Positions 228 to 34,396 of a stretch of 34,396 bases of DNA are shown here, piece after piece. The first letter of the stretch is position 1. Every line of letters starts with the position of its first letter. The position numbers and the translations under genes are program-made. The notes beneath the pieces are model-generated. The model made no database searches, was not told where the DNA came from, and worked only from the letters and a program-made list of their open reading frames with translations. This stretch comes from an uncultured Methylococcaceae bacterium (GTDB lineage Bacteria; Pseudomonadota; Gammaproteobacteria; Methylococcales; Methylococcaceae), in the NCBI GenBank assembly GCA_903934875.1, contig CAIZPP010000178.1, forward strand, positions 1 through 34,396, in the 5' to 3' direction.

Positions 228-230
228 TTA

Positions 231-257
231 AGTAACTCTTTGATGTTGAGAACGCTA
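231..257 (+). repeat. Family 2 repeat, single end abutting the pqqE stop
   Basis: AGTAACTCTTTGATGTTGAG followed by AACGCTA matches the right end of the family 2 elements found at 31951-32072 and 34116-34237. The rest of the element to the left is interrupted by the family 1 insertion and diverged. The pqqE stop codon lies at its outer edge. Confidence 0.6.
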
Positions 258-1406
258 TTAAAAAGTCAAATTTTTAGAGTTTTTGGGGTTGCGGAAAACC
301 AAGGGCTTCGCAACAGCCGATTCGGCATCATGGCGGGCCTGGAAAATCGCCTCATAGACCCTCTGGCGGTCTGGGGACAGGCTGCATGCGGGGTCCGTGC
401 TGTTCATGTCGCCGGTGAGCAGGTAGGCTTGGCAACGGCAGCCGCCGAAGTCCTTGACCTTTTCGGGGCATGACCGGCAAGGTTCTTTCATCCACTCAAA
501 TCCGCGGAAGCGGTTGAAAGCGGGGGAATGGTGCCAGATTTCGTGTATGCTCAGGTCTTTGACATTGGGGCAGTTAAGCCCCGGCAATTCGCGGGCAGAG
601 TGGCAGGGCAGGGCTGTGCCGTCCGGGGCGATGGTGAGGAAAGTGGTGCCCCAGCCGTTCATGCAAGCTTTTGGGCGGTCTTCATAAAAGTCAGGGACCA
701 CGTAATATATCTTCATCTTACCCTTGACTTTTTCTTTGTAGGCCTGTGCGATGGCCTCGGCTTCCTCGAATTGCTCTTTCGTGGGCAATAACTGGTCGCG
801 GTTTAAGTGAGCCCAGCCGTAGTATTGGGTGTTGGCCAGTTCCAGGTAGTCCGCGCCCAAGTCATTGGCCATTTCCAGAATATCACGCATCTGGTGGATG
901 TTTTTACGGTGGATCACTACACACAGCACCATCGGGTAGCCGTTCTTTTTCACCAGCCGGGCGACTTCCCTTTTGTGGTCGTAGGATTCGGTGCCGGCCA
1001 GTTCATCGTTGAGGGTTTTTTCAGGCGACTGGATGCTGACCTGTATATGGTCGAGTCCTGCCTCCTTCAGTTCGACGATCTTGGCTTCGGTCATGCCGTA
1101 ACCGGAGGTTATCAGGTTGCTAAAGTAACCGAGTTTCCGTGCGTGCGCCACCAACACGGACAAATCCTGCCGGACCAGTGGCTCGCCGCCGGAAAAGCCC
1201 AGTTGCACAGAACCCATTGCCCGCGCCTCGCTGAGCACACGCAACCAGTCTTCGGTGCTTAACTCGTTATTGATGCGGGCAAAATTTATCGGGTTGGCGC
1301 AATAAGGGCATTGCAGCGGGCAACTGTAGGTCAGTTCCGCCAGCAACCAACGGGGAGGGGTGATCTTGCTGTTAACTGACCCAGCCATTTTCAATTGCGA
1401 CCTCAA
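258..1406 (-). CDS. pqqE: PqqA peptide cyclase, radical SAM enzyme PqqE
   Basis: Radical SAM enzyme that joins the side chains of Glu and Tyr in the PqqA peptide, the first carbon-carbon bond of pyrroloquinoline quinone; the family acts with PqqD as peptide chaperone. The 382-aa protein has the radical-SAM cluster motif C29-x3-C33-x2-C36 and the following SGGEPL motif. A Cys-rich C-terminal SPASM-type region (CMNGWG, LPCHS, LNCP, CRSCPEK, GGCRC, DPACSLSP) would bind auxiliary clusters. Length is normal for the family. The start at 1406 overlaps the pqqD end by 35 bp; an in-frame Met at 1388 would cut the overlap to 17 bp. Last gene of the pqqABCDE operon. Its stop codon sits at the edge of a family 2 repeat, so the last few residues may be repeat-derived. 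Confidence 0.96.
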   Translation of the reverse strand: MRSQLKMAGSVNSKITPPRWLLAELTYSCPLQCPYCANPINFARINNELSTEDWLRVLSEARAMGSVQLGFSGGEPLVRQDLSVLVAHARKLGYFSNLITSGYGMTEAKIVELKEAGLDHIQVSIQSPEKTLNDELAGTESYDHKREVARLVKKNGYPMVLCVVIHRKNIHQMRDILEMANDLGADYLELANTQYYGWAHLNRDQLLPTKEQFEEAEAIAQAYKEKVKGKMKIYYVVPDFYEDRPKACMNGWGTTFLTIAPDGTALPCHSARELPGLNCPNVKDLSIHEIWHHSPAFNRFRGFEWMKEPCRSCPEKVKDFGGCRCQAYLLTGDMNSTDPACSLSPDRQRVYEAIFQARHDAESAVAKPLVFRNPKNSKNLTF

Positions 1407-8805: not shown

Positions 8806-9384
8806 TCAGGAATTTAACAACTCTTCTGCCTCGACATTCTCAAACACCGCCGCAAGTGGCATGGACAGCCCGATGCTGGCAAATTCACATTCGGCGTCAC
8901 CGGTAAAATCATACAGCACCCAATGGTTGTCGGCATTGCGGCGGAAGCATTCGACCCGCCGGGCGGCGATGTCCACGATAGCGTATTCTTGCAGGCTGGG
9001 CAATTTGCGGTAGTCTGCAAATTTGTCGCCCCGGTCATAGGCGGCGGTGCTGTCGGAAAGGACTTCGACCACTAGCACGGCATGGCGCAAATAGAGGTCG
9101 GCGGTATAGTCGCGGGCATCGCAACTGACCATCACATCAGGGTAAAAACCGCTGTCGGCGGCCTCCACCCGCAGCTTCATGTCCGCCATGTAGGTCCGGC
9201 AAGGGGTTCCGCGCAGGTGGATTTTGAAGCCTGCGAACAGATTGCCGGATACCGTGACGTAGATACGCCTCGCCCCGGCCATCGCAAGGTATTCGCCCCG
9301 CACAAACTCGTGCTTTTCCAGTTGCCCGTCCTCCCAAGCTAGGTAATCAGCAAAACTAAATGCGGTCGCGGGGGGGATGCTCAT
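8806..9384 (-). CDS. Uma2 family endonuclease (DUF820)
   Basis: A 192-aa member of the Uma2/DUF820 family, a restriction-endonuclease-like PD-(D/E)XK fold expanded in cyanobacteria and some proteobacteria. Visible hallmarks are the N-terminal F(A)DYLAWE and HEFVRGEYLAMAGA segments. The catalytic-type pattern is YPDVMVSCD, then LVVEVLSDSTAAYDRGDKFADYRKL. The gene is full length, with a GAGGA ribosome binding site before the ATG. The biological role of the family is unknown. A family 2 repeat end lies 13 bp upstream of the start. Confidence 0.9.
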   Translation of the reverse strand: MSIPPATAFSFADYLAWEDGQLEKHEFVRGEYLAMAGARRIYVTVSGNLFAGFKIHLRGTPCRTYMADMKLRVEAADSGFYPDVMVSCDARDYTADLYLRHAVLVVEVLSDSTAAYDRGDKFADYRKLPSLQEYAIVDIAARRVECFRRNADNHWVLYDFTGDAECEFASIGLSMPLAAVFENVEAEELLNS

Positions 9385-9397
9385 GATCCGGTCCTCT

Positions 9398-9424
9398 TAC
9401 AGCGTTTTTAACATCAAATGCTCG
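9398..9424 (-). repeat. Family 2 repeat, single end upstream of the Uma2 gene
   Basis: TACAGCGTTTTTAACATCAA matches the terminal inverted repeat of the family 2 elements. No partner end is recognisable nearby, so this is a solo or decayed end. Confidence 0.55.
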
Positions 9425-9431
9425 ATTATTA

Positions 9432-9498
9432 GACCTTATCAGAAACCATTTTCCGATGCAGCAGAGGCGCGACCACAAGCTAGGTTTCCGATAATGTC
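9432..9498. repeat. Small imperfect inverted repeat, possible mini-element
   Basis: GACCTTATCAGAAACC (9432-9447) pairs with GGTTTCCGATAATGTC (9483-9498) with two mismatches, enclosing 35 bp. It lies in the gap between the small antitoxin-like ORF and the Uma2 gene. Confidence 0.4.
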
Positions 9499-9505
9499 TA
9501 TTGAC

Positions 9506-9679
9506 TTAGGCGACATCTTGAATGGTTGGTTTGCGGGGCGGGCGCGAGACTAACTTGATATTAGCAGTTGACTGCTTTTTTCGCAGGTCTTCACAAATTG
9601 CGTGGAGGTCGTAGTTAAATTTCTTCGCATGTTCGTCTCTGATGCGATGAATTTCTTCGACGATAGCGTCTTTCCACAT
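9506..9679 (-). CDS. Small antitoxin-like protein partnering the PIN toxin
   Basis: A 57-aa ORF starting MWKDAIVEEIHRIRDEHAKK and containing FNYDLHAICEDLRKK. This is a pattern I know from short proteins regularly encoded just after PIN-domain genes of the same type as the one upstream here. The ATG has a GGAGG element at good spacing and starts 3 bp after the PIN stop codon. The presumed role is antitoxin or partner of the PIN protein. The order is toxin first, the reverse of classical vapBC. The partner assignment is inferred from context. Confidence 0.72.
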   Translation of the reverse strand: MWKDAIVEEIHRIRDEHAKKFNYDLHAICEDLRKKQSTANIKLVSRPPRKPTIQDVA

Positions 9680-9682
9680 GGT

Positions 9683-10156
9683 TTAGTCCTCCATTAGCTC
9701 AAGCGGGGTGCATATAATAGGTGGTTCGTATCCAGATGATTTGCATATGGATTCAATTTTTAAGCGCATCGCTGCATTGGCGATGTGCTTGCAATTCCAA
9801 GTCAACATATAGTCCATGCCATGTACGGTGGCGATGGCAATATGCAGCGCGTCAGCTTTTGCCTTTGCGGGTAAAGCGGCAGCGGCAAGCAACCGCGCCG
9901 CCAACTCTTCAGCCTGTTCGGAAATATCTAGGGCCGGTATATCATTTATTATCGCCAGCCTGCGCTTAACCGCTTCTGGATCGCCGCTACTCGCTTCATC
10001 AAATACCAGAACGGAGATGAAAATCTCAAATTTCGGGCGGGCGGTATCCCACCAACTACGCGTCGTTTCTTGGTTGGCGGCCATCACCAACTCAGGGCTT
10101 CTCCAGGCAGTGAGATAACTTGGAATGGTGGTTTCGAGATAAACCGAAGGTTTCAT
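9683..10156 (-). CDS. PIN-domain protein, VapC-like toxin
   Basis: A 157-aa PIN-domain protein, predicted metal-dependent ribonuclease. It starts MKPSVYLETTIPSYLTAW, has SVLVFDEAS in the middle and AKADALHIAIATVHGMDYMLTWN near the C-terminus, giving the acidic residues typical of PIN active sites. The first acidic position is Glu (YLETT) rather than Asp, as usual in this subfamily. It is followed directly by a 57-aa partner ORF. It lies downstream of the disrupted PD-(D/E)XK gene, 9 bp away. Confidence 0.85.
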   Translation of the reverse strand: MKPSVYLETTIPSYLTAWRSPELVMAANQETTRSWWDTARPKFEIFISVLVFDEASSGDPEAVKRRLAIINDIPALDISEQAEELAARLLAAAALPAKAKADALHIAIATVHGMDYMLTWNCKHIANAAMRLKIESICKSSGYEPPIICTPLELMED

Positions 10157-10165
10157 GCCTTTGAC

Positions 10166-11377
10166 TCAGGGTGCGGGCGGGTTTTGAGGTGGTGCCGCGT
10201 TGCCACTGAGTTGGCCTAGTAGATTGGCATCGCCCAAAGCCGTGTAAATGGCTTGGGTTTTTTCCATAATCATCTCAGCCATTGCGCCGCTTTGAATGTC
10301 GAGCCAAGGTTGTGTGTTTATACTCCAATCATCGTAGGGGGCGGAGAAGTTCCTGTACCAATGATACCACCTTGTTTTCCCATCAGTATGAAAGATATTC
10401 TGATTTAAGCACTTGCGTACATCCGGCAAGTCAGGTAATGTCGTATTGTTTTTACAGATACTGTAAGAAAACCCCGAGTGGCGTTGCGTAGAAAATTCAA
10501 AAATAACAAAATATAAACCAGCTTGTGGATGCCAGAATTTGATGCATCGGTGTTGAGGTATAACCCATTCCAGTGTCCAGCCAAGTGCATCTGCCCTATC
10601 ATTTAATTCTTGTTGAAGCTGATCAAGTAAAACGCTGTGGATTTGATCTCTCGTATTGGCAATTTCCAAAGCGGCTTCCAGCGTCTCACGCCTTTCCAGC
10701 GCAATATTGACAACTTCTTGCATTTCAGCCATTTCAATCCCCACAAATTGTTTTTGGATATAGTCGATAAATTCATTGAGAAAAGTGTTTACCCTGTCGG
10801 CTTGGCATTCCCGGCGGCAGTCTTTTAGCCAGTCAATGAGTTGCGGATAGCCAATGGCTATGAAGCGTCCGTCATTTTCTGCCTGTTTCCTGTCAACCTC
10901 AGAAATACTATCGGGTGAAGGTGGCTTACCCAGATTAGGCAATTCAAGCGTGGGTGGCTGTGTGCCAATTGTGCCAAATAACGCGTACATTGATATTTCT
11001 GATCACCAGCCCTTGGCTTGTTTTCGATGGTTATGGCCGCTAAACCAAAATTGAGATGAACATCCATCCGCCCATCGTGGTGGTCAGTCGTTTTTTTCAG
11101 TGCTGACTATAGCCCTATCGGCCAAAGGCAGGAATTTTTCCAACTCAAAGAATTGCAGAAATAACTCAAGAAAAATCGAGCCTTGGGCGTGTGAACCGGT
11201 GGGCGAAAGCAGTTCTTTCAATAGTTGCGACAAACGCAACTCGTTCGGGCCAAACAAGCCAATGGCGTTAAATTCTGGGGCAAGTTTTGGAGCATAAAGC
11301 TTACGGGCTTGCCGGAGCGCATCCAAACGGTGGTGAATCCCTAGCAGAAGATCACGGTGACACATCATTAGCTCCAT
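10166..11377 (-). pseudogene. PD-(D/E)XK nuclease family protein, broken by two frameshifts
   Basis: Three reading frames carry consecutive pieces of one protein. Residues from 11377 to about 11094 give an N-terminal part with LRLSQLLKELLSPTGSHAQG. The next piece, down to about 10940, carries the nuclease core DGRMDVHL and ITIENKPRAGDQ. The last, down to 10166, continues with GKPPSPDSISEVDRKQ and a long helical C-terminal part. The first break is in a run of seven A on the coding strand (11091-11097). Dropping one A joins TEK to TTDHHDGRMDVHL. The second lies near 10935, where one base appears missing. Proteins of this type are associated with defence or mobile islands. The gene start overlaps the upstream PIN gene, so it belonged to that operon. 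Sequencing error in the homopolymer is the main alternative. Confidence 0.75.
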
Positions 11378-12214: not shown

Positions 12215-12352
12215 CTGATGTTACGCAACCGTGTAGGCTGTAGCCCTGATGTTGTGGAGTGCGGCGACTCGTCGCCGCCTTTTGCGTCCAGCGGCGACGA
12301 GTCGCCGCACTCCACAAGTTGCCATCCTCTAGCAATGACTACGTAACATCAG
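12215..12352 (-). mobile_element. Family 1 MITE-like element, second copy with inner palindrome
   Basis: A 138-bp copy, inverted relative to the one at 60-227 and exactly 30 bp shorter because it has one fewer internal 30-bp unit. It runs from CTGATGTTACGCAACC to GTAACATCAG. ATATTAA lies directly outside both ends (12208-12214 and 12353-12359), a probable 7-bp target duplication. It sits in the 446-bp gene-free stretch between the antitoxin gene and thiC. Confidence 0.78.
12252..12317. repeat. Inner palindromic unit of family 1, 66-bp form
   Basis: TTGTGGAGTGCGGCGACTCG to its mirror image CTCCACAA, with the self-complementary GGCGACTCGTCGCC in both arms and a short spacer. It is inserted at the same position of the outer element as at 95-190. 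Confidence 0.75.
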
Positions 12353-14584: not shown

Positions 14585-14716
14585 GGGGTGCGATTAAATG
14601 TGATGCAGACGAACCGGGCAGTCTTTGAGTTTATACCGGGAGTGCAAGGCCTGCCTTGCCTTTAGATGCCCTCGCAAGGCAGGCCTTGCACTCCCGCATC
14701 ACTTTTAATAGCACCC
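14585..14716. mobile_element. Family 3 MITE-like element with 9-bp target duplication
   Basis: Ends GGGTGCGATTAAATGTGATGC and GCATCACTTTTAATAGCACCC are inverted repeats. Direct repeats GTTTTCCTT flank it exactly (14576-14584 and 14717-14725). Inside is a perfect 22-bp palindrome with a 14-bp loop (14638-14695). A second copy is at 24240-24369. No ORF. Confidence 0.85.
14638..14695. repeat. Inner perfect palindrome of family 3
   Basis: The 22-bp arm GGGAGTGCAAGG-CCTGCCTTGC is followed by a 14-bp loop and the exact reverse complement. Each arm itself contains the small inverted repeat GCAAGGC-CT-GCCTTGC. Confidence 0.85.
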
Positions 14717-14777
14717 GTTTTCCTTAGAGTCCGCGCAAAAAAGCTCGTCAGGCATTGAATAGAGGGGCGGCAAGGTT

Positions 14778-17596: not shown

Positions 17597-18859
17597 ATGA
17601 CAGCCATGAGCCATTCCGTCAAAACCGGTCCCTTCTACCAAACCCTCTACTTTCAAGTCATTGTCGGCGTGATTTTAGGGGTGTCCGTCGGTTTGCTGTG
17701 GCCAGAGTTTGGCGCGAAGCTCAAGCCCTTGGGCGATGGCTTCATCAAACTGGTCAAGATGCTTATCGCCCCCATCATTTTTTTCACCGTTTCCTTGGGG
17801 ATTGCCCACACCGGCGACATGCGCAAGGTGGGCAGGGTCGGATTGAAGGCTTTACTGTACTTTGAAGTCGTTTCCTCGTTCGCATTGCTGATTGGACTGA
17901 TTGTCGTCAACCTCTGGCAACCGGGCGCTGGAATGAACATAGACCCCAAAACCCTGGATGCCGGAGCCGTGTCAAGTTACACCGCCGGGGCAAAGGCGAT
18001 GGGCACGGTTGATTTTCTGCTCAACATTATTCCAAATAGTGTGGTCGATGCGTTTGCCAAGAATGAGATACTGCAAGTGCTACTGTTTTCTGTACTATTT
18101 GGTTGGGCGCTAGGTGCGCAAGACGTTCGCGGTAGGCCAGTGTATGATTTGCTGGAACGCTTGTCCGCGATTTTTTTCAATATGATAGCCATGATTATGC
18201 GCTTGGCTCCGTTAGGCGCTTTCGGTGCCATGGGTTTCACCGTGGGCAAGTATGGGTCTGGGGCGCTGTTGTCGCTGGGCAAGCTGATGGGCGGGGTATA
18301 TCTCACGTGCGCTTTGTTCGTCGTCGTGGTGCTGGGGTTGATCGCCCGCTTCAGTGGCTTTAGCCTGTGGCAGCTTATTAAGCATATCAAGGACGAACTG
18401 TGGGTGGTGCTGTCCACCTCTTCATCGGAAGCGGCGCTGCCGGGCCTGCTGGCAAAGCTGCAAACCTTTGGTTGTGCAAAGCCAGTGGTGGGTTTGGTCA
18501 TCCCCACAGGTTACTCATTTAACTTGGATGGCACCTCAATCTACCTGACCATGGCCGCAGTATTCATAGCGCAGGCCACCAATATCGATCTGAGTCTGGT
18601 CCAGCAGTTGACTCTTCTGGCGGTGCTTCTGCTAACTTCCAAGGGCGCGGCAGCGGTCACTGGTGGGGGATTTATCACATTGGCGGCAACCCTTTCGTCA
18701 ATGGATGTGTTGCCGGTTGCGGGCTTGGCCTTGTTGCTGGGAGTGGACCGGTTTATGTCCGAGGCCCGCGCCATCACCAACCTGATTGGCAACGCCGTGG
18801 CCACTGTGGTCATCGCCAAGTGGGAGGGGGCATTCGATGACAGTGAGGACTCTATGTAG
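17597..18859 (+). CDS. dctA: Dicarboxylate/amino acid:cation symporter (DctA/GltP family)
   Basis: A 420-aa secondary transporter of the SDF (DAACS) family, importing C4-dicarboxylates or acidic amino acids with H+ or Na+. Features: [15 protein letters not shown] in the first helix, [15 protein letters not shown], the serine-rich re-entrant loop [29 protein letters not shown] and the second hairpin [18 protein letters not shown]. Eight helices are expected for the family. The start used is MTAMSHSVK; a second Met at 17606 is possible. It is co-directional with and 10 bp after the cyclase gene. It overlaps the convergent dehydrogenase gene by 8 bp. The exact substrate is unproven. Confidence 0.88.
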
Positions 18860-19781
18860 GCTTCCCCAACATGTCCGGTAGCAGTGCGCCAAGCGCATTT
18901 TTAACCGCCGAGGATGCGGCCAGCAAATCTTGCCGCTCATGTTCGTTAAGTTCTGGTTGGAGAGTGCGGATGACACCGCTGCGCCCGACCACCACCGGGA
19001 TGTTTAAGCAATTATCGGTGATGCCCATCCAATCGTCGAAGCGGATGGCCAATGGCATGGTGCGATTTTCGTCTAATAGGATGGATTCAAGCACCATGCT
19101 GGCGGCGGTGGCAATGGCATGGTTAGTGTATCCCTTCAGATGATAGACTTCGAAACCGGCTGCTATCACTTGGTCAAAAAGCTGCCTGTGGTAAGGCGTG
19201 TCGCCTATGAGTTCCCCGCCGGCTTGGGCATTGCCCAACACCGGAAATTGATGCGGCCCATGTTCACCCAGCACATAGGTGCGCAGGTCGTCGGGGTGGA
19301 TGAGCAATTCCTTCGATAGCAGGAAGCGGTAGCGCGCCGAGTCCACCAAGGTTCCCACGCCCATGACCCTGTGGGGCGGAAGCCCAGTCAATTTGACCAC
19401 GGCATAGGTCAGCACCTCCACCGGGTTACTGAGGATGACAAATAGCGCGTCGGGATTATTGCCGGATAATACCGGGATGAGTTCCCGAAACAGGGCGACG
19501 TTTTTTAAGCCAAGTTCTAGTCGGTCAGACATCTTCGCGTCCATTGGTGTCGAGGCCGTGATGACGACAATGTCGCAGTCTTTAACCTCGCCGTTGGTAC
19601 AGGCTTCGATGCGCATAGGCCGCGGGCAAAAGGCCAGAGTGTGTTGCAAATCTAGCGCGTCTCCTTGCGCTTTCTTACTCGTACGTCCGGCAATCACCAG
19701 ATGGTCACAAAGTTGTTTGAGAACCAAACAATAGGCTAGGGTGGAGCCGACTCGTCCGGTGCCGATGATGGCGATTTTCAT
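18852..19781 (-). CDS. Lactate/malate dehydrogenase family protein, atypical specificity
   Basis: A 309-aa oxidoreductase of the LDH/MDH family with the Rossmann motif GTGRVG (7-12) and catalytic D147, R150 (VDSARYR) and H174 (GEHGPHQFP). The position that is Gln in lactate and Arg in malate dehydrogenases is Met80 ([16 protein letters not shown]), so the substrate cannot be deduced. At the end of beta-2, where NAD-dependent members have an acidic residue, it reads IAGRTSKKA, which suggests NADP use. The convergent dicarboxylate transporter next door makes an organic-acid substrate plausible. A family 2 element starts 2 bp upstream of the ATG and no Shine-Dalgarno is visible. Confidence 0.82.
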
Positions 19782-19783
19782 AT

Positions 19784-19953
19784 TACAGCATTTTCAACAT
19801 CAAAGAGTTACTTGGTAGTGGGTATCATAGCGCAGGTTATTCGGTTAACAAAGAAAAATAATAAAGGGCACCCAATCAAACCATCCTGCGTTTGAATTGC
19901 TTTGCAAAATGATATAACTTAACAAGTAACTCTTCGATATTAAAAACGCTGTA
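19784..19953. mobile_element. Family 2 element, chimeric 170-bp copy
   Basis: TACAGCATTTTCAACATCAA at the left and ATATTAAAAACGCTGTA at the right form the terminal inverted repeats. The left 65 bp match the right end of the element at 34116-34237, read in reverse. The remainder matches the reverse complement of the element at 31619-31740. The joint is at GTTAAC (about 19846-19851). It lies directly before the start codon of the dehydrogenase gene. Confidence 0.7.
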
Positions 19954-24239: not shown

Positions 24240-24369
24240 GGGTGCAATTAAAAGTGATGCAGACGAACCAGCAGTCTTTGAATTTATACCGGGAGTGCAA
24301 GGCCTGCCTTGCCTTTAGATGCCCTCGCAAGGCAGGCCTTGCACTCCAGCATCACTTTTAATCGCACCC
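24240..24369. mobile_element. Family 3 MITE-like element, second copy
   Basis: A 130-bp element with ends GGGTGCAATTAAAAGTGATGC and GCATCACTTTTAATCGCACCC. It is flanked by perfect 9-bp direct repeats GGCTTCCAC (24231-24239 and 24370-24378). The inner palindrome (24291-24348) equals that of the 14.6 kb copy with one mismatch. It is inserted in the last codons of the mutarotase gene and supplies its stop codon. Confidence 0.88.
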
Positions 24370-25275
24370 GGCTTCCACGCTATACCTGACCCACAGCTTA
24401 TACTCTTCCCTGGGAGCGATGGCCACCACATCATCGGCGGCGTTGGCAGTTTCAACACAGACCATATTGGCATGGCAACCCTCGTCCATATCGGCCATTG
24501 CCGAGGCCTTAGCGGACCACGGGTTCCAGACGATGGTGGAGTGGCTGCCTTTTTTACTGATACGGATGCGGCGGTTTAAACTGGGATCGTCGATTTGACA
24601 GTCGGTGCCGGAATCCAGGTAAATGCGATCTATCTCGGCGGCTATGGTGATCGGTCCCTGCTGTTTTTTGCGCTGTCCATCTTCAAGTTTGTCGATGTAA
24701 GTACAGCCGTCCAAGCCTTGGATAGAAATTTGCCTGATATCGCCCACTCGAAAATAGGTGTGCAACGCCTGGCCGATGACGACAGGTTGCAAACCCTCGT
24801 TGCGGGTGGCCAGTTCGATTTCCAAGGTGTTGCCCAGGGTAAACCGAACCTCCACAGGTGTCGGATGCGGCCAGACGGTTTGGCTGGCTGCTCTTGGCGG
24901 CAGGCGTAAGGCGATGAAAGTAGTGCCGTCATCCAACTGGGCTGTATTGGCCACTTCCCAAAGCGAGGTGCGGGCAGGCCCATGGAAGGGGTAGCCTGGC
25001 TCGGTGGGATGCGATGCGAACCAAGGCCAGCAGATGGGCACCCCGCCGCGTATCGGCTTGCCCGCGTTAAATTGCGCCAAGGGCGACAGCCAAATAACCG
25101 GTTGCTGTTTGCGTGGTGTCCAACTTGCCAGATGGGCACCGTGCAGGAAGAGGGTGGCACTGGCGTGTAGGTTGCTGATTTCGGCGATTGCCAGCCCGCC
25201 GGGGCCTCTGCGAAAACTCAAATGGCCGTCTATGCCGAATTTGTTGTTTAGGGCGGGTAGGTCAACGGTATTCAT
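24358..25275 (-). CDS. D-hexose-6-phosphate mutarotase (YeaD family)
   Basis: A 305-aa galactose-mutarotase-fold enzyme interconverting anomers of glucose-6-phosphate or related sugars. Family motifs: LHGAHLASWTPRKQQPVIWL, GKPIRGGVPICWPWFASH, FHGPARTSLWEV, the catalytic His region IGQALHTYFRVGDI, and NPWSAKASAMADM. The start is MNTVDLPALNN at 25275, with AGGA upstream; the ORF extends further but the extra 71 residues overlap intergenic sequence. The family 3 insertion changed the C-terminus. The duplicated target encodes VEA, after which the element adds GCD and a stop, while the uninterrupted sequence would read VEAM-stop. Likely operon with the acyltransferase and smrA. Confidence 0.9.
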   Translation of the reverse strand: MNTVDLPALNNKFGIDGHLSFRRGPGGLAIAEISNLHASATLFLHGAHLASWTPRKQQPVIWLSPLAQFNAGKPIRGGVPICWPWFASHPTEPGYPFHGPARTSLWEVANTAQLDDGTTFIALRLPPRAASQTVWPHPTPVEVRFTLGNTLEIELATRNEGLQPVVIGQALHTYFRVGDIRQISIQGLDGCTYIDKLEDGQRKKQQGPITIAAEIDRIYLDSGTDCQIDDPSLNRRIRISKKGSHSTIVWNPWSAKASAMADMDEGCHANMVCVETANAADDVVAIAPREEYKLWVRYSVEAGCD

Positions 25276-27882: not shown

Positions 27883-28518
27883 CTAACCGGTTCGCAAATG
27901 ATTTTGTCCCCCCACGCCCCGCCATGACTGCTTGGCTTGGGTCAGGCGTGTGCAAAACAAGAAAAGCAGTATGATTGCATAAATTGATGGATTGGTAACA
28001 TCCCGCTTTACCAGCCAAAAGTAATGCAGCACAGCGGCCGTGGCCACTGGATACGCCAGTCGATGCAATAGTATCCAGTACCGCCCTCCCATGCGCTTCA
28101 TCATCGCCGTAGTCGAAGTGATCGCCAATGGAACCATCAAAGCGAAGCTAATGAAACCTGCCATCATGTAGGGGCGTCTGGTGATGTCTTTGTTGATTTC
28201 AGTCCAATCGAATAATTGATCGAAAAGCAAGTAACCCAGCATGTGCAAACTGGCATAGAAGAAGGCATAAAGCGCAATGGTTCTTCTCAAACGAGTTAAC
28301 CAATTCCAATGGGTTAGCTTGCGCAAAGGACTAATTGCCAAGGTTGCGATTAATAAATTTAACGCCCATATTCCCGTTGTGTGGGTAATATCTCCTATCG
28401 GGTCTGGCCCAAAAGTATTGGTAAAAAAGGCGATTGGAAGTTTAGCAAATGGGATTAGGCAGGCAATGAACAAGGCATACTTGATTTGGTTTATTGTTGT
28501 TATTGACAAGTTCTTCAT
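27883..28518 (-). CDS. msrQ: MsrQ, heme-binding membrane subunit of the MsrPQ methionine sulfoxide reductase
   Basis: A 211-aa ferric-reductase-like membrane protein. MsrQ passes electrons from the quinone pool or flavin reductases to the periplasmic molybdoprotein MsrP, which repairs oxidised methionines. Motifs: DITHTTGIWALNLL (heme His), LRRTIALYAFFYASLHMLGYLLFD (heme His), and WILLHRLAYPVATAAVLHYFWLVK (two His). Length is normal. No msrP is adjacent; upstream is only a family 2 element beginning about 5 bp before the start codon. Confidence 0.9.
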   Translation of the reverse strand: MKNLSITTINQIKYALFIACLIPFAKLPIAFFTNTFGPDPIGDITHTTGIWALNLLIATLAISPLRKLTHWNWLTRLRRTIALYAFFYASLHMLGYLLFDQLFDWTEINKDITRRPYMMAGFISFALMVPLAITSTTAMMKRMGGRYWILLHRLAYPVATAAVLHYFWLVKRDVTNPSIYAIILLFLFCTRLTQAKQSWRGVGGQNHLRTG

Positions 28519-28523
28519 TGGTA

Positions 28524-28643
28524 TAGAATTTTTAATATAAAAGAATTACTCTTAGGTTATATGATATTGCAAGGCAAATACACACAACATGGTTTAATTG
28601 AGCGTCCTTTATTATTATCCTTTATTAATATAAAAATGCTGTA
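28524..28643. mobile_element. Family 2 element, diverged copy upstream of msrQ
   Basis: About 120 bp, from TATAGAATTTTTAATATAAA to AAAAATGCTGTA. The interior (ACATGGTTTAATTGAGCGTC, then CTTTATTATTATCC) matches the interior of the copy at 31619-31740 with many substitutions, so this is an older copy. Confidence 0.65.
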
Positions 28644-28700
28644 CATAAAAATTTCTCCAATTTCACATACCCTTTTCATAAATGTATGCCAAGCAATCAT
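28644..28700 (+). repeat. Repeat 4 (ATGTATGCCAAGCAATCAT), copy 1
   Basis: CATAAAAATTTCTCCAATTT followed by CACATACCC and AAATGTATGCCAAGCAATCA. Copies lie at 32711-32769 and, inverted, at 31890-31950, each joined to a family 2 end at the same base. Confidence 0.6.
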
Positions 28701-28777
28701 TCAAACTATCCTGTGTGTCTGTGCTTTGCAGAATGATATAACTCAACTAGTAACTCTTCGATATTAAAAACGCTGTA
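28701..28777. repeat. Family 2 element, partial copy
   Basis: Right half of a family 2 element: CAAACTATCCTGTGTGTCTG, GTGCTTTGCA and the end CTCTTCGATATTAAAAACGCTGTA matched in parts to 19784-19953 and to the reverse of 31619-31740. The left end is missing. Confidence 0.6.
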
Positions 28778-28786
28778 ATAGGATTG

Positions 28787-28814
28787 AAAAAAAAGACCCG
28801 CCAACAGACGGGTC
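28787..28814 (-). terminator. Strong intrinsic terminator on the minus strand
   Basis: Minus strand GACCCG-TCTGTTGG-CGGGTC followed by eight T (28794-28787). No annotated minus-strand gene ends here, which points to a small RNA upstream of it. Confidence 0.8.
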
Positions 28815-28885
28815 AGTTGCATACCGATGCAAAGACTCCAAGAGGAGGAACTGATTGTATGACTGTTGGGGGAAAAGCAAGTTCC
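28787..28885 (-). ncRNA. Candidate small structured RNA
   Basis: Upstream of the terminator at 28787-28814, the minus strand holds two further hairpins: TTGCAT-CGGT-ATGCAA (28817-28832) and CTCC-TCTT-GGAG (28836-28847). An enclosing GGAAC/GTTCC pair (28881-28885 with 28847-28851) sits further 5'. AT-rich sequence with a TATGGGATAT box precedes the putative 5' end. About 100 nt with a U8 tail is typical of Hfq-type small RNAs. Family not recognised; the proposed 5' end is a guess. Confidence 0.4.
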
Positions 28886-28997
28886 ATATCCCATAATTTT
28901 TTACTCTATGTACTAGTAAGTTGAGTGGTTTATCCTTCATAATATCTTTTTTTACCTTGCATTTCTTTGCTAAAGTACATCCAACTAGGTTGATTCG

Positions 28998-29399
28998 ATG
29001 AAAAAAATCATGATCGTGCTTGTTGCCGTTTTGCTGCTTTCTGCCTGCGGCAACAGCAAGGAGCAACAGGATCTTAAACAGGTTCTTACTGAAAAATTCA
29101 AGGATGACAGCGATTTGAAGGATTACAAGCTGAAACCGGAGGATATAGCCGACTGTGTCGTGGCTAACATTTCCGAGGAAGCCCCCCCCGTTCCCGGCGA
29201 CCCTAAACGCGTGCGCTACTTTGAGGCATTTACCAAGTTCGCCTCTGTCAAATCGCCTGCCGATTTGGAAAAGGCCGTCAAGGACTATCAGGATATCTTC
29301 GGCGGCACCAAGGAAACCTACGCGGCTGCCAACAATGTGACTGATTACATCATGAGTTGCATGGGTTTGGCGATAGAAAAAGCCACGCCCGCAGAATAA
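28998..29399 (+). CDS. Small lipoprotein of unknown function
   Basis: A 133-aa lipoprotein: MKKIMIVLVAVLLLSACGNS has a signal sequence with lipobox LSAC, so Cys17 is the lipidated residue. The mature part is charged and helical, beginning KEQQDLKQVLTEKFKDD, with two further cysteines (ADCVVAN, MSCMGLA). I do not recognise the family. It stands alone on the plus strand, with a hairpin terminator at 29506-29532 about 110 bp downstream. Confidence 0.8.
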   Translation: MKKIMIVLVAVLLLSACGNSKEQQDLKQVLTEKFKDDSDLKDYKLKPEDIADCVVANISEEAPPVPGDPKRVRYFEAFTKFASVKSPADLEKAVKDYQDIFGGTKETYAAANNVTDYIMSCMGLAIEKATPAE

Positions 29400-29505
29400 A
29401 TCCTGCTGCAACAGCTTCTTGATGGGATGTTCTTGATCAGGAATCGCCTAACCGTCCACCCTTCGACAAGCCCAGGGCGAACAGTTAAGCCTTTGGTAAG
29501 AAATG

Positions 29506-29532
29506 TCCCGCCTTAAGTTGAGCGGGATTTTC
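29506..29532 (+). terminator. Terminator after the lipoprotein gene
   Basis: TCCCGC and GCGGGA pair around a 10-nt loop and are followed by TTTTCTGT. The convergent rhlE gene ends at 29593, so it may serve both directions. Confidence 0.65.
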
Positions 29533-29592
29533 TGTCCCCCCTTCGCTAGGGTTCAGAACGAACGGAAAATCCTTAAACTTAATGGCGGTGGG

Positions 29593-30903
29593 CTAGCGCC
29601 TGCGCCCTAGACCGCCGTCTTGTTTTGCTTTAGCGGCACTCCCGCCCCCGCTTTTGCGGCCGCGAGGTGCTTGTTGGCCACGGCGGGATGGGCCATCGCC
29701 CGTCTGTTGGGTTCTGCCCGGCAAGGCTGACCGGGGTAAGTTCGGGTTGCGTGTGTTCAGGGAGAATGATGGCTCGAAACCGGGCGCTACCAACCGGGGG
29801 ATATCCTTGTTCAACACCTGTTCAATGGCTGCCAGCAATTTTATTTCCTCCAGGCAAACCAGCGACACCGCCTCGCCAGTCGCCCCGGCCCGCCCGGTTC
29901 TCCCTATCCGGTGGACATAATCTTCTGGAATATTCGGCAACTCATAGTTGACTACATGCGGCAACTGGTCGATATCAAGCCCTCGCGCCGCGATATCGGT
30001 GGCCACTAATACTTCTACTTTGCCGTTTTTGAAGCCCGCCAAAGCCTGGGTGCGTGCGCCTTGGCTTTTGTCGCCATGCAGCACCCCAGTGTTGATGCCA
30101 TCGCGTTCCAATTGCCGGGCCAGGCGGTCAGCGCCATGTTTGGTGCGCACGAACACCAGCACTTGCTTCCACCTTCCGCTGCCCACCAGGAAGGAAAGAA
30201 GCTCGCGTTTCCTTTCCTTCTCCACTGCGTAAACCAATTGATTGACAAGTTCCGTCGCCGCGTTTCGTTTGGCGACCTCAATCATAACCGGAGCATGGAG
30301 AATTTGGCCGGAGAGACTGCGGATTTCGTCGGAAAAGGTTGCCGAAAACAACAAATTCTGCCGCTTTCTTGGCAGTAGGTTAATGATTCTCCGCACATCG
30401 TGGATGAAACCCATGTCCAACATGCGGTCTGCCTCATCCAGCACCAATATTTCCACGCGGGAAAGATCCAATGCCCGCTGGCCGACCAGATCCAACAGCC
30501 GCCCCGGGGTCGCCACCAGTATATCCACACCTCTGCGCAGACGGTCGATTTGCGGGTTTATGCCCACTCCGCCGAAAACCACGGCGGCGCGAAGGGGCAG
30601 GTACCTTCCGTAAGTCACCACACTCTCATGGACCTGGGCCGCCAGTTCGCGGGTGGGGGTTAAGACCAGTGCGCGAACCATGCGCCTTGCTTCCGGGGCA
30701 TTGGGTGTCTCATTGAGCAATTGCAACAGTGGGAGCGTGAAGCCGGCGGTTTTTCCAGTGCCGGTTTGGGCACCTGCCAGCAAATCTTGCCCGTTCAGAA
30801 CAACGGGAATGGCTTGTTTTTGCACCGGGGTGGGTCGTTCGTAACCCTGTTCCGAAACGGCACGCAACAATTCGGCGCTAAGGCCGAGTTGGGAAAAAGA
30901 CAT
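29593..30903 (-). CDS. rhlE: DEAD-box ATP-dependent RNA helicase RhlE
   Basis: A 436-aa RNA helicase acting on structured RNA in ribosome assembly and mRNA decay. All helicase motifs are visible: Q motif ([13 protein letters not shown]), [13 protein letters not shown] (Walker A), [51 protein letters not shown] and [10 protein letters not shown]. The C-terminus is a basic Gly/Arg-rich tail ([17 protein letters not shown]), typical of RhlE. Full length. Confidence 0.94.
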
Positions 30904-31066
30904 TAATCACCTAGTCGATAGATAAAGGTAGCCGCGTCTGCCGGAATCAATTCCGGGCCGGTCCAGACGGTTGGGGGGCGCAGCGAGTTCGCCGGTTGCG
31001 GGAAGCTTAATGCGGGGGAGGAAAACGCCGACAGGCAGGCGGATGGATTGATGCTATATTATAACT

Positions 31067-31094
31067 TACAGCGTTTTCTACATCAAATAGTTAC
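31067..31094. repeat. Family 2 repeat, single end
   Basis: TACAGCGTTTTCTACATCAA then ATAGTTAC matches the family 2 terminus. No partner end was found; a palindrome follows at 31103. Confidence 0.55.
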
Positions 31095-31102
31095 TAAAAG
31101 TC

Positions 31103-31137
31103 CCCCGTCATTTCGGCATCCCTGCCGAAATGACGGG
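31103..31137. repeat. CCCCGTCATTTCGGCA palindrome downstream of the DUF3617 gene
   Basis: CCCCGTCATTTCGGCA and TGCCGAAATGACGGGG form a long hairpin around a 3-nt centre. Same repeat type as 12169-12203. Placed 25 bp after the stop of the DUF3617 gene, it may serve as its transcript end. Confidence 0.65.
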
Positions 31138-31161
31138 GCTGGCAAAACGGAGAGTTGCTGC

Positions 31162-31614
31162 TTACAAAGCACCGCCCGTAGTCGGGCAATCGCCTAGGTA
31201 GCTGGCGTGAAGCTGGTTTTGCATGTCGACTTTTTCTTCCCCGCCCACCGACACATTAAGAAACCCATCCAGCGATGTCGCGGTGGAGGTAACCTGTCCA
31301 TGTCCCTTGATTCCCAAGGTGCCTGCACAACTGACATCAAATGTCAGCGTATTGCCCGAATATTGCCGGTTCAGGAAGTCGCAGCCTGTCGCACCGGAAG
31401 AACTCATGCCAAGCAAAAGCCGGTCGGGGTTTTGCGCGTCGGCTGCGGTCAGGCATTGACTTAACTCAAAAGGCTGGGGCTTCCAATCCGGCGTGGCAGC
31501 CACCCCCGATTCCAGGGATATCTTCCACAGCCCTGGCTTGATATCCTCCACAGCGAAACTGCTTGTGGCCACGGCAATTAGGCCAAGCGCGGGGTATGCT
31601 AAAAATTTATTCAT
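31162..31614 (-). CDS. DUF3617 family exported protein
   Basis: A 150-aa protein with signal peptide (MNKFLAYPALGLIAVATSSF, cleavage near FAVED). The mature part starts IKPGLWKISLESG, the hallmark of DUF3617, and has four cysteines (SQCLTAADA, GCDFLN, VSCAG, GDCPTT) spaced as in that family. Function is unknown; predicted periplasmic. A family 2 element begins 4 bp before the start codon, and the sequence between contains no Shine-Dalgarno. Confidence 0.82.
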   Translation of the reverse strand: MNKFLAYPALGLIAVATSSFAVEDIKPGLWKISLESGVAATPDWKPQPFELSQCLTAADAQNPDRLLLGMSSSGATGCDFLNRQYSGNTLTFDVSCAGTLGIKGHGQVTSTATSLDGFLNVSVGGEEKVDMQNQLHASYLGDCPTTGGAL

Positions 31615-31618
31615 GGTA

Positions 31619-31740
31619 TACAGCGTTTTTAATATCGAATAGTTACTTGTTAATTTATATTATTTTGCAAAGCACAGACACACAGGATGGTTTGATTGAG
31701 TGTCCTTTATTATTTCTCTTTGTTAAGAAAAAACGCTGTA
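31619..31740. mobile_element. Family 2 element, full 122-bp copy upstream of the DUF3617 gene
   Basis: TACAGCGTTTTTAATATCGA to AAAAAACGCTGTA. Terminal inverted repeats start and end with TA, consistent with a duplicated TA target as in IS630/Tc1-type elements. Interior: GCAAAGCACAGACACACAGG, then GATGGTTTGATTGAGTGTCC. No ORF. Confidence 0.75.
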
Positions 31741-31889
31741 CATAAATGCAAATCGGGACTCCCGGCAATGTAATGGCACATAGGGCGGTTTTTGTAGAGC
31801 AGCTAAAAGCCATGCTAGAACTATGGTTTACACCTATTGCCCCTTACCGCGTTGAGGGCAGCCCATAAGTGCATTATTATATGCGCTTA

Positions 31890-31950
31890 AACGATTGGTT
31901 GGCATACATTCATGAAAAGGGTAAGTATCAAGCATGGAAAAATCTTTATG
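31890..31950 (-). repeat. Repeat 4, inverted copy
   Basis: The reverse complement reads CATAAAGATTTTTCCATGCT, then TACCCTTTTCATGAATGTAT and GCCAACCAATCGTTT. It abuts the family 2 element at 31951 at the same base as the other two copies. Confidence 0.6.
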
Positions 31951-32072
31951 TACAGCGTTTTCATCTTCAAAATATATCTAAAGCTGAAATTCAGTCAACC
32001 CTTCAGGTTAGCCGAATAACCTACGCTATCATACCCACTATCAAGTAACTCTTTGAAGTTGAAAACGCTGTA
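31951..32072. mobile_element. Family 2 element, 122-bp copy downstream of the L,D-transpeptidase gene
   Basis: TACAGCGTTTTCATCTTCAA to GAAGTTGAAAACGCTGTA. The interior (CCCTTCAGGTTAGCCGAATA, ACCTACGCTATCATACCC) differs from the 31619 copy but matches the copy at 34116-34237. Confidence 0.75.
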
Positions 32073-32088
32073 TTATGCCTATTGCACC

Positions 32089-32586
32089 TTACTTATCGTC
32101 GATTAAGACCCGCGTTTCCGCTGCGACCCTGTCGAACAGGTCCACGACATCGGAGCTGGTCATGCGGATGCAGCCGTGGGATTGGAATGGGGTGTAGACC
32201 CCATGCTCGGGGCTGCCATGAATATAGATGTAACGGCTGGCAGTGTCAACCTCGCGGTAACGGTTGAAGCCCGGCTCCAGCCCACTTAGCCAGAGTATCC
32301 GGGTCAGTATCCAGTCACGCTGCTGATATTTCCCGGCCAACTGTGCGCTGTACCTCTCGCCGGTGGGCCTCCTGCCGACGAACACGGCATCTATTGGCCC
32401 GCCCCCGCCAATTTTGGCGCGGATCGTGTGCCAGCCGCGTGGGGTGCAGCCAGAGTTTTTAAGCTCGCCAGCTCCGTTTTTGGCGGTTGAAACCGGGTAG
32501 CTTTTTATGGCAATGCCATTCTCAATCACATTTAAGCGTTGCTCGGGGATGCTGACGTGGAGAAAAAAGTTGGGTATTTCCATCAT
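32089..32586 (-). CDS. L,D-transpeptidase (YkuD domain) family protein
   Basis: A 165-aa YkuD-domain protein. L,D-transpeptidases form 3-3 peptidoglycan cross-links or attach proteins using a catalytic Cys. The active-site block YIHGSPEHGVYTPFQSHGCI, then RM, holds the His and Cys; the N-terminal part carries the typical VIENGIAIKSYPVSTAKNG repeat-like strand. No signal peptide is apparent, so either export is unconventional or the start is misplaced; many short bacterial members look the same. The first ATG overlaps the TA end of a family 2 element; a second ATG follows at once. Confidence 0.88.
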   Translation of the reverse strand: MMEIPNFFLHVSIPEQRLNVIENGIAIKSYPVSTAKNGAGELKNSGCTPRGWHTIRAKIGGGGPIDAVFVGRRPTGERYSAQLAGKYQQRDWILTRILWLSGLEPGFNRYREVDTASRYIYIHGSPEHGVYTPFQSHGCIRMTSSDVVDLFDRVAAETRVLIDDK

Positions 32587-32710
32587 AGAGCGTTTTTCAA
32601 CATCAATCGGTTACTTGATAAGGCTTCTGGTTGTTGCTAGATATTTTTTTCAAGCAAAAGTTGTTTGAATATTCATTTTTAGTTGGTTTTTAAAGATGAA
32701 AAACGCTCTA
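32586..32710. mobile_element. Family 2 element, TAGAGCG variant upstream of the L,D-transpeptidase
   Basis: TAGAGCGTTTTTCAACATCA to AAAGATGAAAAACGCTCTA. Terminal repeats share the variant AGAGCG, so both ends changed together. Interior diverged. Confidence 0.65.
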
Positions 32711-32769
32711 CATCAAGATTTCTCCAGCCTCACATACCCTTTAAGAAATGTATGCCAACCAATCATTTG
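32711..32769 (+). repeat. Repeat 4, copy overlapping the rlmD 3' end
   Basis: CATCAAGATTTCTCCAGCCT, CACATACCC, then ATGTATGCCAACCAATCATT. The rlmD stop codon (complement of 32763-32765) lies inside it. Confidence 0.6.
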
Positions 32770-34115
32770 CTATTAAAAACGCTGTCACGCTCAAACAGCG
32801 CGATGGATTCAACGTGGGCGGTGTGCGGAAACATATCCATGACACCGGCTTTCAGCAAACGGTAGCCTTGTTCATTGACCAGAAAGCCAGCGTCGCGGGC
32901 CAGGGTTGATGGGTTGCAGGAGACATACACGATGCGCTTGGCGGACCACAGGCCGGCATAGGCGAGGATTTCCAAAGCCCCGGCACGCGATGGGTCGAGC
33001 AGCACTTTGTCATAACTGCGGGTGGCCCAGGCTGATGAGTCCTGCGCCAAGGTCAGGTCAGCGACATGGAAAGCCACATTGTCCAAGCCATTGTCCAGTG
33101 CGTTTTGCCTTGCCCGTGCCACCGCGTCCGCCCCGCCTTCGACGCCAAGCACATGGGCCGCTTTCCGTGCCAAGGGCAGCGTGAAATTGCCGATGCCACA
33201 GAATAGATCCAAAATTTCTTCGGTCGGCTGCGGGTCCAGCGCCGCCAGCACCCGGTTGACCATTTTACGGTTGATTGCCACATTCACTTGCGTGAAATCG
33301 GTGGGCTGGAAATGGAACTCAAGCCCGCTTTCCGGTAAGGAGTAAGCCAGCAGCGGCGGATGCTCCGGCCACAGCGCGAAGATCGAATCCGGCCCCTTGG
33401 GTTGCAAGTAAATGTCAAAGCCAAAACGCAGCCCGAAGCCGCGCAGCAGGTCCAAATCGGCAGGGCTGGGCGCTTCCAACACACGAAACACCAAGGCCGT
33501 GCGTTCGTCACCCACCGCCACTTCGATTTGTGGCACCCGTTCCTTGATGCTTAATGTGGAAATCACTTCTGCCAAATCGCGCAAGTGCATGCCCACTTGC
33601 GGGTGCAGCACGGCGCAGGATTCGATGTCGGCAAGAAAGGCGCTGGCCTTTTCGCGGAAGCCGACCAACACTTTCTCCTTCTTTGCCACCCATTTGACCC
33701 CTAGGCGGGCTTTGTGGCGGTATCCCCAGTGCGGACCCGTCAAAGGCGGCCAGACTTCCTCAGGCTGGACTTTGCCGATGCGGCGGAATTGTTCCATCAG
33801 CAAATTTTGCTTGGCGACGATCTGTTGGACCTCGTCCAAGTGTTGCAGGCTGCAACCGCCGCAAACACCGAAGTGCGGGCAGCGCGGTTCGATCCGGTTG
33901 GGGGCAGGGGTGATGACCTGCCAAACGCGGGCCTCGGCATAATCGCGGTGCATGTCGGTGTAGACGAACTCGACTTCCTCGCCGGGCAAGGCGCCATCGA
34001 CAAACACCGCCTTGCCATCGACATGGGCAACCCCCCGCAAGTCGTGGGTAAAAGACTCAATGCGGGCGGCAACAGGGGCCTTGGGCAGGGATTTACGGTT
34101 GGGGCGTTTGGACAT
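32763..34115 (-). CDS. rlmD: 23S rRNA (uracil-1939-C5)-methyltransferase RlmD
   Basis: A 450-aa SAM-dependent enzyme that makes m5U1939 in 23S rRNA. An N-terminal TRAM domain (RIESFTHDLRGVAHVDGKAV) is followed by the iron-sulfur cysteines RCPHFGVCGGCSLQHL and SCAVLHP. Then come the SAM motif EILDLFCGIGNFTLPLARKA, DPSRAGALEIL and the catalytic Cys in VSCNPSTLARD. The last seven residues (DSVFNSK) are encoded by a family 2 terminus joined to repeat 4, so the C-terminus has been remodelled by repeats. A complete family 2 element starts immediately before the ATG, with no visible Shine-Dalgarno. Confidence 0.95.
   Translation of the reverse strand: MSKRPNRKSLPKAPVAARIESFTHDLRGVAHVDGKAVFVDGALPGEEVEFVYTDMHRDYAEARVWQVITPAPNRIEPRCPHFGVCGGCSLQHLDEVQQIVAKQNLLMEQFRRIGKVQPEEVWPPLTGPHWGYRHKARLGVKWVAKKEKVLVGFREKASAFLADIESCAVLHPQVGMHLRDLAEVISTLSIKERVPQIEVAVGDERTALVFRVLEAPSPADLDLLRGFGLRFGFDIYLQPKGPDSIFALWPEHPPLLAYSLPESGLEFHFQPTDFTQVNVAINRKMVNRVLAALDPQPTEEILDLFCGIGNFTLPLARKAAHVLGVEGGADAVARARQNALDNGLDNVAFHVADLTLAQDSSAWATRSYDKVLLDPSRAGALEILAYAGLWSAKRIVYVSCNPSTLARDAGFLVNEQGYRLLKAGVMDMFPHTAHVESIALFERDSVFNSK
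32771..32787. repeat. Family 2 terminus inside the rlmD 3' end
   Basis: TATTAAAAACGCTGT equals the family 2 right end; in the rlmD reading frame it encodes DSVFN. Confidence 0.6.
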
Positions 34116-34237
34116 TACAGCATTTTCATCTTAAAAATATACTTAAAACAGACATTCCTTTAACCCTTCAGGTTAACCGAATAACCTGCGCTAGCATACC
34201 CACTACCAAGTAACTCTTTGATGTTGAGAATGCTGTA
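34116..34237. mobile_element. Family 2 element, 122-bp copy directly before rlmD
   Basis: TACAGCATTTTCATCTTAAA to GATGTTGAGAATGCTGTA. Interior (CCCTTCAGGTTAACCGAATA, ACCTGCGCTAGCATACCC) is closely related to the copy at 31951-32072. The first base follows the rlmD start codon (complement of 34113-34115) with no gap. Confidence 0.75.
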
Positions 34238-34330: not shown

Positions 34331-34396
34331 CTGACGTTACGCAGTCATCGCTAGAGGATGGCAACATCCGGGCTACAGCCTACACGGTTGCGTAAC
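34331..34396 (+). mobile_element. Family 1 element without the inner palindrome, cut by the window end
   Basis: Starts CTGACGTTACGCAGTCATCG and continues CTAGAGGATGGCAACATCCG, passing straight across the position where the other two copies carry the inner palindrome. It then reaches GGTTGCGTAAC at the window end. Completed by ATCAG it would be 71 bp. Confidence 0.75.

Follow-up and report, generated by a model that had tools for sequence, protein, structure and literature searches.

Repeat elements at five gene starts

The stretch of DNA analyzed here (hereafter the window) comprises 34,396 bp of contig CAIZPP010000178.1 from the genome of an uncultured Methylococcaceae bacterium (GCA_903934875.1). 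This genome (G000; 5.41 Mb, 344 contigs) was compared with relatives labelled G001 to G006, of which G006 belongs to the same genus. Short repeat elements lie at the starts of five genes in the window, namely rlmD, an L,D-transpeptidase gene, a DUF3617 gene, msrQ, and a gene of the lactate/malate dehydrogenase family (LDH/MDH), whose families were confirmed with Pfam. The elements have two distinct ends, termed L (TACAGCGTTTTYAAYATCRAAKAGTTACTTG) and R, and are denoted by block types A, B, and C; flanks on the R side are labelled sA and sB.

34116..34237, minus strand: A-type element, 122 bp, with its inner-type (R) end directly against the rlmD start at 34115
32763..34115, minus strand: rlmD, 23S rRNA uracil-5-methyltransferase family; its last codons (DSVFNSK plus stop) come from an element end
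32763..32786, minus strand: solo L-type end overlapping the 3' end of rlmD
32586..32710, plus strand: C-type element, 125 bp (type by reading), with its L end over the first transpeptidase ATG and an sA-like flank after its R end
32089..32586, minus strand: L,D-transpeptidase (YkuD); second ATG favored by orthologues
31951..32072, minus strand: A block of a composite; outward L end 16 bp from the transpeptidase stop
31741..31950: spacer of the composite, 210 bp (sB ... sA); A side similar to DNA upstream of an IS630 transposase gene (by reading)
31619..31740, plus strand: composite B block, whose L end lies 4 bp from the start of DUF3617 at 31614
31162..31614, minus strand: DUF3617 gene
31067..31097, plus strand: solo L-type end, 163 bp upstream of a start at 30903
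28522..28777: degraded composite, with a B-like block (28522-28643), a short sA-like piece, and, up to 28777, an inverted B-like L part; msrQ lies 3 bp from the L end
27883..28518, minus strand: msrQ (Ferric_reduct family)
19784..19953: chimera, 170 bp, whose outward L ends are one A type and one B type; LDH/MDH start (19781) 2 bp away
18852..19781, minus strand: LDH/MDH gene
9398..9428, plus strand: solo L-type end, 13 bp from a start at 9384; AGAGGA remains between element and ATG
229..259, minus strand: solo L-type end on the 3' edge of a gene (258-1388)

The original prediction had placed element ends 0-5 bp from these five starts, and its coordinates hold: the distance (d) from the TACAGCGTTTT-type end to the start codon is 0 bp for rlmD, -1 bp for the transpeptidase, 4 bp for DUF3617, 3 bp for msrQ, and 2 bp for LDH/MDH. 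The negative value arises where the terminal TA of the element at 32586 overlaps the first of two transpeptidase ATGs. The element at the DUF3617 gene (31619-32072) is a composite of A block, spacer, and B block, and in the end on the msrQ side (28522) 3 of the 11 bases depart from TACAGCGTTTT, as read from the sequence.

The repeat family and its probable parent transposon

We sampled the window and 80 further stretches of G000 (81 loci; 1,034,826 bp or 1.03 Mb, 19% of the genome), of which 48 were chosen via contig number and 32 mostly via contigs with a previously listed copy. Elements were called with up to two mismatches per 11-base end, three in total, and a length of 105-150 bp, a rule by which older copies are missed. 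Genes were called by a simple purpose-made caller, and msrQ scored under its initial cut-off. The sample yielded 133 elements with a length peak at 121-124 bp, and orientation could not be assigned for 10 of them. Blocks were found singly, as half ends, and as composites of about 455 bp, which are common in gaps and have the order L..R, CATAAA ... TTTATG, R..L with the L ends outward. The R side of 58 A blocks was flanked by sA in 30, sB in 1, and neither in 27, and that of 53 B blocks by sB in 37, sA in 1, and neither in 15, while neither flank occurred on the L side of any of the 133 elements. A gene edge was overlapped, or lay no more than 30 bp away, for 144 of 215 L ends, versus 37 of 154 R ends.

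Exact-end copies numbered 178 in G000, 94 in G006, 3 in G005, 2 each in G001 and G002, none in G003 and G004, and 1 in G030 (same family), and none were found in the other 53 of 61 genomes. By organism name, the end pattern was present in Crenothrix polyspora RSM_CP1 (at least 24 stretches) and RSM_CP2 (at least 2), Candidatus Methylumidiphilus alinenensis AMbin10 (at least 29), and two other bins (at least 3). Copies in AMbin10 and G006 agree in contig position (L021 against G006:C35), and G006 therefore appears to be AMbin10; by this comparison the window would come from a Methylumidiphilus-like methanotroph. At L006 and other loci of Crenothrix RSM_CP1, near-identical 129-bp elements carry the same ends around an unrelated palindromic core (CTTCGACAAGCTCAG...), and this near-identity suggests recent activity. 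In the open-licence PMC text covered by a literature search, we found no published account of this repeat family.

The origin of the elements is indicated by G006. This genome encodes a 317-aa IS630-type transposase (DDE_3, E 1.7e-29) whose stop codon lies inside an L-type end, 16 bp from its outer edge (L180); for this copy, no left end was found. A second sequence (G006:C289:1-983; L182/L216) retains both outer L-type ends, with an A-type block at the left (type by reading) and a transposase without its first ~67 residues. At L230, an A-type block is followed by the CATAAA flank and then by the transposase ATG, and L234 has the same order, beginning within the block. These copies, which combine both ends with a truncated transposase or place an A-type block before the transposase ATG, identify the A block, on sequence comparison, as the left end of an IS630-family element. 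Additionally, transposase 3' ends in G001, G005, and G003 carry L-type ends, and matches to the cognate transposase numbered 13 in G006 and 1, nearly full-length, in G001. By reading, the composite looks like a derivative that would have retained DNA upstream of the transposase, and the length of the blocks speaks against transposase coding inside them.

Two other candidates for the parent were rejected. The one DDE_3 match in G000 (L144) is a fragment of IS630-like type that lacks these ends, and DDE_Tnp_1 loci, which were scanned for ends, had no end pair evident around the transposase from the end positions.

The elements have the properties of an IS630-derived miniature inverted-repeat transposable element (MITE), i.e., terminal inverted repeats in common with an IS630-family transposon, short length (121-124 bp), high copy number (178 exact-end copies), and an intergenic location (0 of 133 in called genes). 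IS630 elements duplicate TA on insertion. Among 233 joined-flank queries, 2 matched an ungapped empty site with a single TA (L008 against L176; L083 15161-15544, within another composite), 1 gave an ungapped match that was a tandem end without TA, and 230 had no such match. At the target flanks, C was avoided at +1 (3% vs 18%) and A/T was preferred at +3.

We also considered a conserved RNA structure for the elements. Consensus energies were weak (A -8.4 with 50 sequences, B -6.6 with 52, C -16.8 with 14), with covariation terms of 1.0, 0.8, and -0.6, and a functional RNA is not claimed. Single element sequences gave better folds than shuffled ones (median z -2.1 to -5.7, up to 20 sequences per group), as is to be expected of inverted ends.

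Larger arrangements were seen as well. The spacer between two R ends at L108:6330-6956 (contig C44) is 627 bp instead of the usual ~209 bp and is partly protein-coding by appearance, as judged by reading. Five pairs of opposed ends lie 1.0-2.0 kb apart with no end between them (window 9398-10639; L033, L116, L117, and L143), and it is possible that these represent larger elements.

Placement at gene edges

Distances to starts and stops were counted from outermost element ends. Within 5 bp of a start we found 32 of 131 ends, against 5.6 expected from even TA sites in element-free gaps and 20.5 (sd 4.1) when each gap was counted once. Within 5 bp of a stop there were 27 of 129, against 4.2 and 16.7 expected in the same two ways, and a further 11 starts and 26 stops lay deeper inside an element. 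The gaps with an element numbered 160, of which 100 had both outer ends and 71 were used in same-gap tests, which left out gaps whose element end ran into a gene past the TA. When random TA sites were drawn in the same excised gap, 20 ends lay at starts against 13.6 expected (p=0.007) and 22 at stops against 11.7, a value reached in 0 of 5000 simulations; 6-20 bp from starts, the counts were 17 and 16.6. The comparison of start distances with random TA sites, proposed in the original prediction, thus gave a start excess above chance, but the stop excess was larger. Likewise, of the proposed preference for TA beside a start codon, the TA target (two clean empty sites) and a modest start excess stood, but a special role of starts is not supported, given that stops are hugged at least as much.

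No direction was apparent either. In 71 co-directional gaps the element was nearer the start in 30, nearer the stop in 40, and tied in 1 (p=0.91). Blocks faced start and stop at ratios of 16:23 (A) and 17:18 (B; p=0.64), and hence nothing points to a directional leader or promoter. An element end contains the stop codon, at a depth of 3-60 bp, in 33 called genes of the G000 loci, rlmD (32763-32786) among them, and provides both this stop and a short tail (e.g., QRF, QHSQHQRVT, or YSVFNIK).

Gap widths in the relatives provide an account of part of this pattern. Upstream of the transpeptidase, the gap is 3 bp in G001, G002, and G003 and 36, 146, and 244 bp in the other three relatives; for DUF3617, five of the six relatives have an upstream gap of -50 to 35 bp, and G004 has one of 384 bp. 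Such ancestral gaps are so narrow that any insertion there must touch a gene. Among 27 start-adjacent cases, the next gene lay no more than 40 bp from the far end of the element in 15.

Taken together, these results suggest that the elements are probably non-autonomous, MITE-type remnants derived from IS630, placed at gene edges to a considerable extent by narrow gaps and not serving as portable gene starters. Their source would be an IS630-family transposon found among methanotrophs of the Candidatus Methylumidiphilus group. In the congener, a ~124-bp block (L ... R) would form the left end of this transposon, and an L-type inverted repeat on the right would hold the transposase stop codon. 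The elements would have entered TA dinucleotides, intragenic copies would have been lost to selection, and the survivors would remain in gaps between genes, many of them too narrow for an element to insert without touching a start, a stop, or both. Genes with a displaced Shine-Dalgarno (SD) sequence must still initiate, presumably without a strong SD, as most genes here appear to do by our SD test. An additional pull towards both gene edges would stay outside this narrow-gap explanation.

Several observations weigh against this account. G000, a 344-contig assembly, had no matches to the cognate transposase, and none of the copies recovered was an intact transposon with a full transposase between both ends. 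The gap upstream of rlmD is 28-599 bp in relatives and that upstream of LDH/MDH exceeds 1 kb, so that a narrow gap explains neither; upstream of msrQ, it is 12 bp behind another gene in G001-G003, but 553 bp in G006, which has the divergent neighbor found in G000. Narrow ancestral gaps thus clearly account, on orthologue comparison, for the transpeptidase and DUF3617 positions and not for those of rlmD or LDH/MDH, with the msrQ gaps pointing both ways, and the comparison of orthologous loci without the element, as proposed originally, comes out divided along this line. In 12 of the 27 start-adjacent cases, the next gene lies 61-760 bp past the far end. Only 1 of 71 gaps of -4 to 0 bp has an element, and 12-25% of gaps have one in every length class from 1-10 bp through >300 bp. 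This similar share means that element density per TA in gaps of 1-30 bp is ~40 times that in gaps of >300 bp. Both gene edges are over-used within one gap. Finally, for 11 of the 131 starts the called position falls 6-20 bp within an element end, and these may be caller errors.

Some of these points lead to a different explanation, in which the transposition machinery is drawn to gene junctions, at start or stop edges, beyond its preference for TA and flanking bases. We regard this as unlikely, though it deserves more weight than any other alternative. The over-use of both edges in the same gap persisted with target-flank weights (starts 20 vs 14.4, p=0.0095; stops 22 vs 12.6, 0 of 4000), and the density in short gaps and the rlmD and LDH/MDH cases, whose gaps are wide in relatives, fit it too. 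However, long gaps may contain missed genes, regulatory DNA, or old repeats, and selection on survivors can look like targeting; the short-gap density could come from selection in longer gaps, genes missed there, or true junction targeting. Moreover, edge-hugging was only weakly replicated elsewhere: within 5 bp, AMbin10 (29 loci) had 3 of 38 starts (1.8 expected) and 4 of 27 stops (0.6 expected), and Crenothrix (24 loci) had 1 of 17 starts (0.7 expected) and 1 of 31 stops (1.2 expected).

The original prediction had offered a portable translation or promoter leader, selected at starts and linking unrelated genes in expression. Element ends do lie 0-5 bp from real starts, those of conserved genes among them, and the start excess inside gaps is consistent with such a role. 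Promoter-like matches in the A block and spacer, TTGACT-16-TATATT and ATGCCA-18-TATAAT (10/12 each), may fit it too, with 5 such matches in the stretch scanned against 2.1 (sd 1.4) expected from shuffles. The former match (window 31971-31998, minus strand) lies in the A block and reads towards the R end; at rlmD, it is the R end of the element that adjoins the start codon. On the other hand, stops are hugged as much as starts, A and B blocks face both alike, the element end has no SD (0/33), and start-adjacent ends are few in AMbin10 and Crenothrix. With stops used equally, no start bias in the paired test, and even block orientation, the leader did not hold up, and it is quite improbable.

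The strongest case for retention concerns rlmD. Element-end-like sequence stands at its ATG in G000 (R end, window 34116), in G005 (L-type end, supported by BLAST), in G006 (an 11-base end match with 2 mismatches), and in G003 (L-like, by reading only) (L148, L149, and L151); BLAST found no element similarity at rlmD in G006 or G003, with G002 outside that BLAST. One site occupied recurrently or anciently would explain this, and it is the best remaining hint of retention. A broader form of this idea, in which two or more species have retained IS630-derived ends directly 5' of genes as a leader, at rlmD above all, and these ends act as SD-independent start regions that let the element enter gaps of a few bases without silencing genes, is improbable. 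A second copy of the rlmD N-terminus (L154, G000:C215:9469-9558; 30 residues, 80% identical), with AAAACGCT directly before its ATG, is perhaps a duplicated 5' fragment.

Translation starts, comparison with known repeats, and implications

The N-terminus of rlmD aligned at residue 1 in six of six relatives, that of DUF3617 in five of six, and that of LDH/MDH in two of two, with four relatives having no match. For msrQ, this was the case, with an ATG, in four of five relatives examined; the fifth was a 49% match without ATG, and L161 (a sixth, 49% match) was outside the comparison. The relatives' ATG of the transpeptidase stands at residue 2 in five of six, and its likely start is thus 2 bp from the element. 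Because orthologue N-termini align at residue 1 or 2, the five window starts are, as judged from these alignments, real, with the second ATG for the transpeptidase, and the predicted agreement with family N-termini was borne out.

The prediction that element sequence without an SD directly precedes these starts was confirmed as well. AGGA, GGAG, or GAGG was absent, by reading, from the last 17 bases in all five window genes. In the G000 sample, none of the 33 genes (score ≥40) that have an element end at -2 to 6 bp carries an SD core at -17 to -5, compared with 27% of 319 genes whose upstream 300 bp are free of element ends and 4% for a control stretch; by duplex energy, no SD was detected at 27 start-adjacent element ends. 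These results imply that element-adjacent genes would initiate without a native SD.

Two further ideas about initiation were discarded. A native SD kept past the far end of the element and bridged by a hairpin proved uninformative, in that a duplex energy of -5 was reached in 26% of 27 far flanks, 27.6% of 399 ATG starts, and 16.5% of the control stretch. A mini-ORF in the L end that overlaps the gene start as TAATG is, by reading, absent from B-type ends.

NCBIfam profiles were run on 20 of 35 listed element-adjacent proteins, and the match began at residues 1-8 in 11, at residues 13-15 in 1, and only further in for 7, with none for 1; the genes tested include purB (d 1), galU (d 3), ccmB (d -1), an acetate/propionate kinase gene (d -1), and rdgB-like and yaiI-like genes (d 4 each). 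The first ATG after an element is easily picked as a start, and this, with the second ATG of the transpeptidase and the nine proteins whose match began beyond residue 8 or was lacking, would suit the view that starts are miscalled, true starts lie downstream, and adjacency is an annotation artefact, but the orthologue alignments of the five window genes and the 11 matches from residues 1-8 make that view highly improbable.

Among known repeats, the repeat unit of pneumococcus (RUP) is the closest kind by description. RUP is ~107 bp long, has terminal repeats like those of an IS630 transposon (IS630-Spn1), and has been proposed to be moved in trans by IS630-Spn1 (PMC3049150); our elements are likewise short with IS630-type terminal repeats. 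In contrast, RUP density peaks 50-150 bp from genes (PMC3049150), whereas here L ends hug gene edges, and the parts of PMC3049150 consulted mention no counterpart of the ~455-bp two-block composite. Correia elements of Neisseria lie mostly immediately upstream of genes, some with promoters, according to the portion of PMC10969869 consulted; compared by description, the elements here differ in using stops as much as starts without directional bias. In S. pneumoniae, 36 genes have a stop codon at their very 3' end that is encoded by a BOX element (PMC3049150), similar to the 33 called genes whose stop is held by an element here. As described in the same portion of that source, BOX elements are modular, with mobilization by ISSpn2 proposed from similar repeats, and in this they differ from the IS630-derived elements here.

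The window contains other repeats, including a GCGGCGACTCGTCGCCGC palindrome and a CAACATCCGGGCTACAGCC...GTTGCGTAAC unit (104-190 and 12261-12317; 188-222, 12220-12254, and 34362-34396). A duplication links 14586-14723 and 24240-24376, ~9.65 kb apart, with 106 bp at 95% identity and an adjoining 30 bp at 93% identity.

These results would provide a prolific methanotroph repeat family with a parent transposon and a target site, and the same 15-20 bases before the ATG of unrelated genes would be explained by element ends. Unlike the IS630-linked RUP, this MITE-type family lies close against gene edges, and translation of a number of conserved genes must, it seems, begin without the native SD in place. 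Shared leaders in such genomes would therefore be no evidence of co-regulation.

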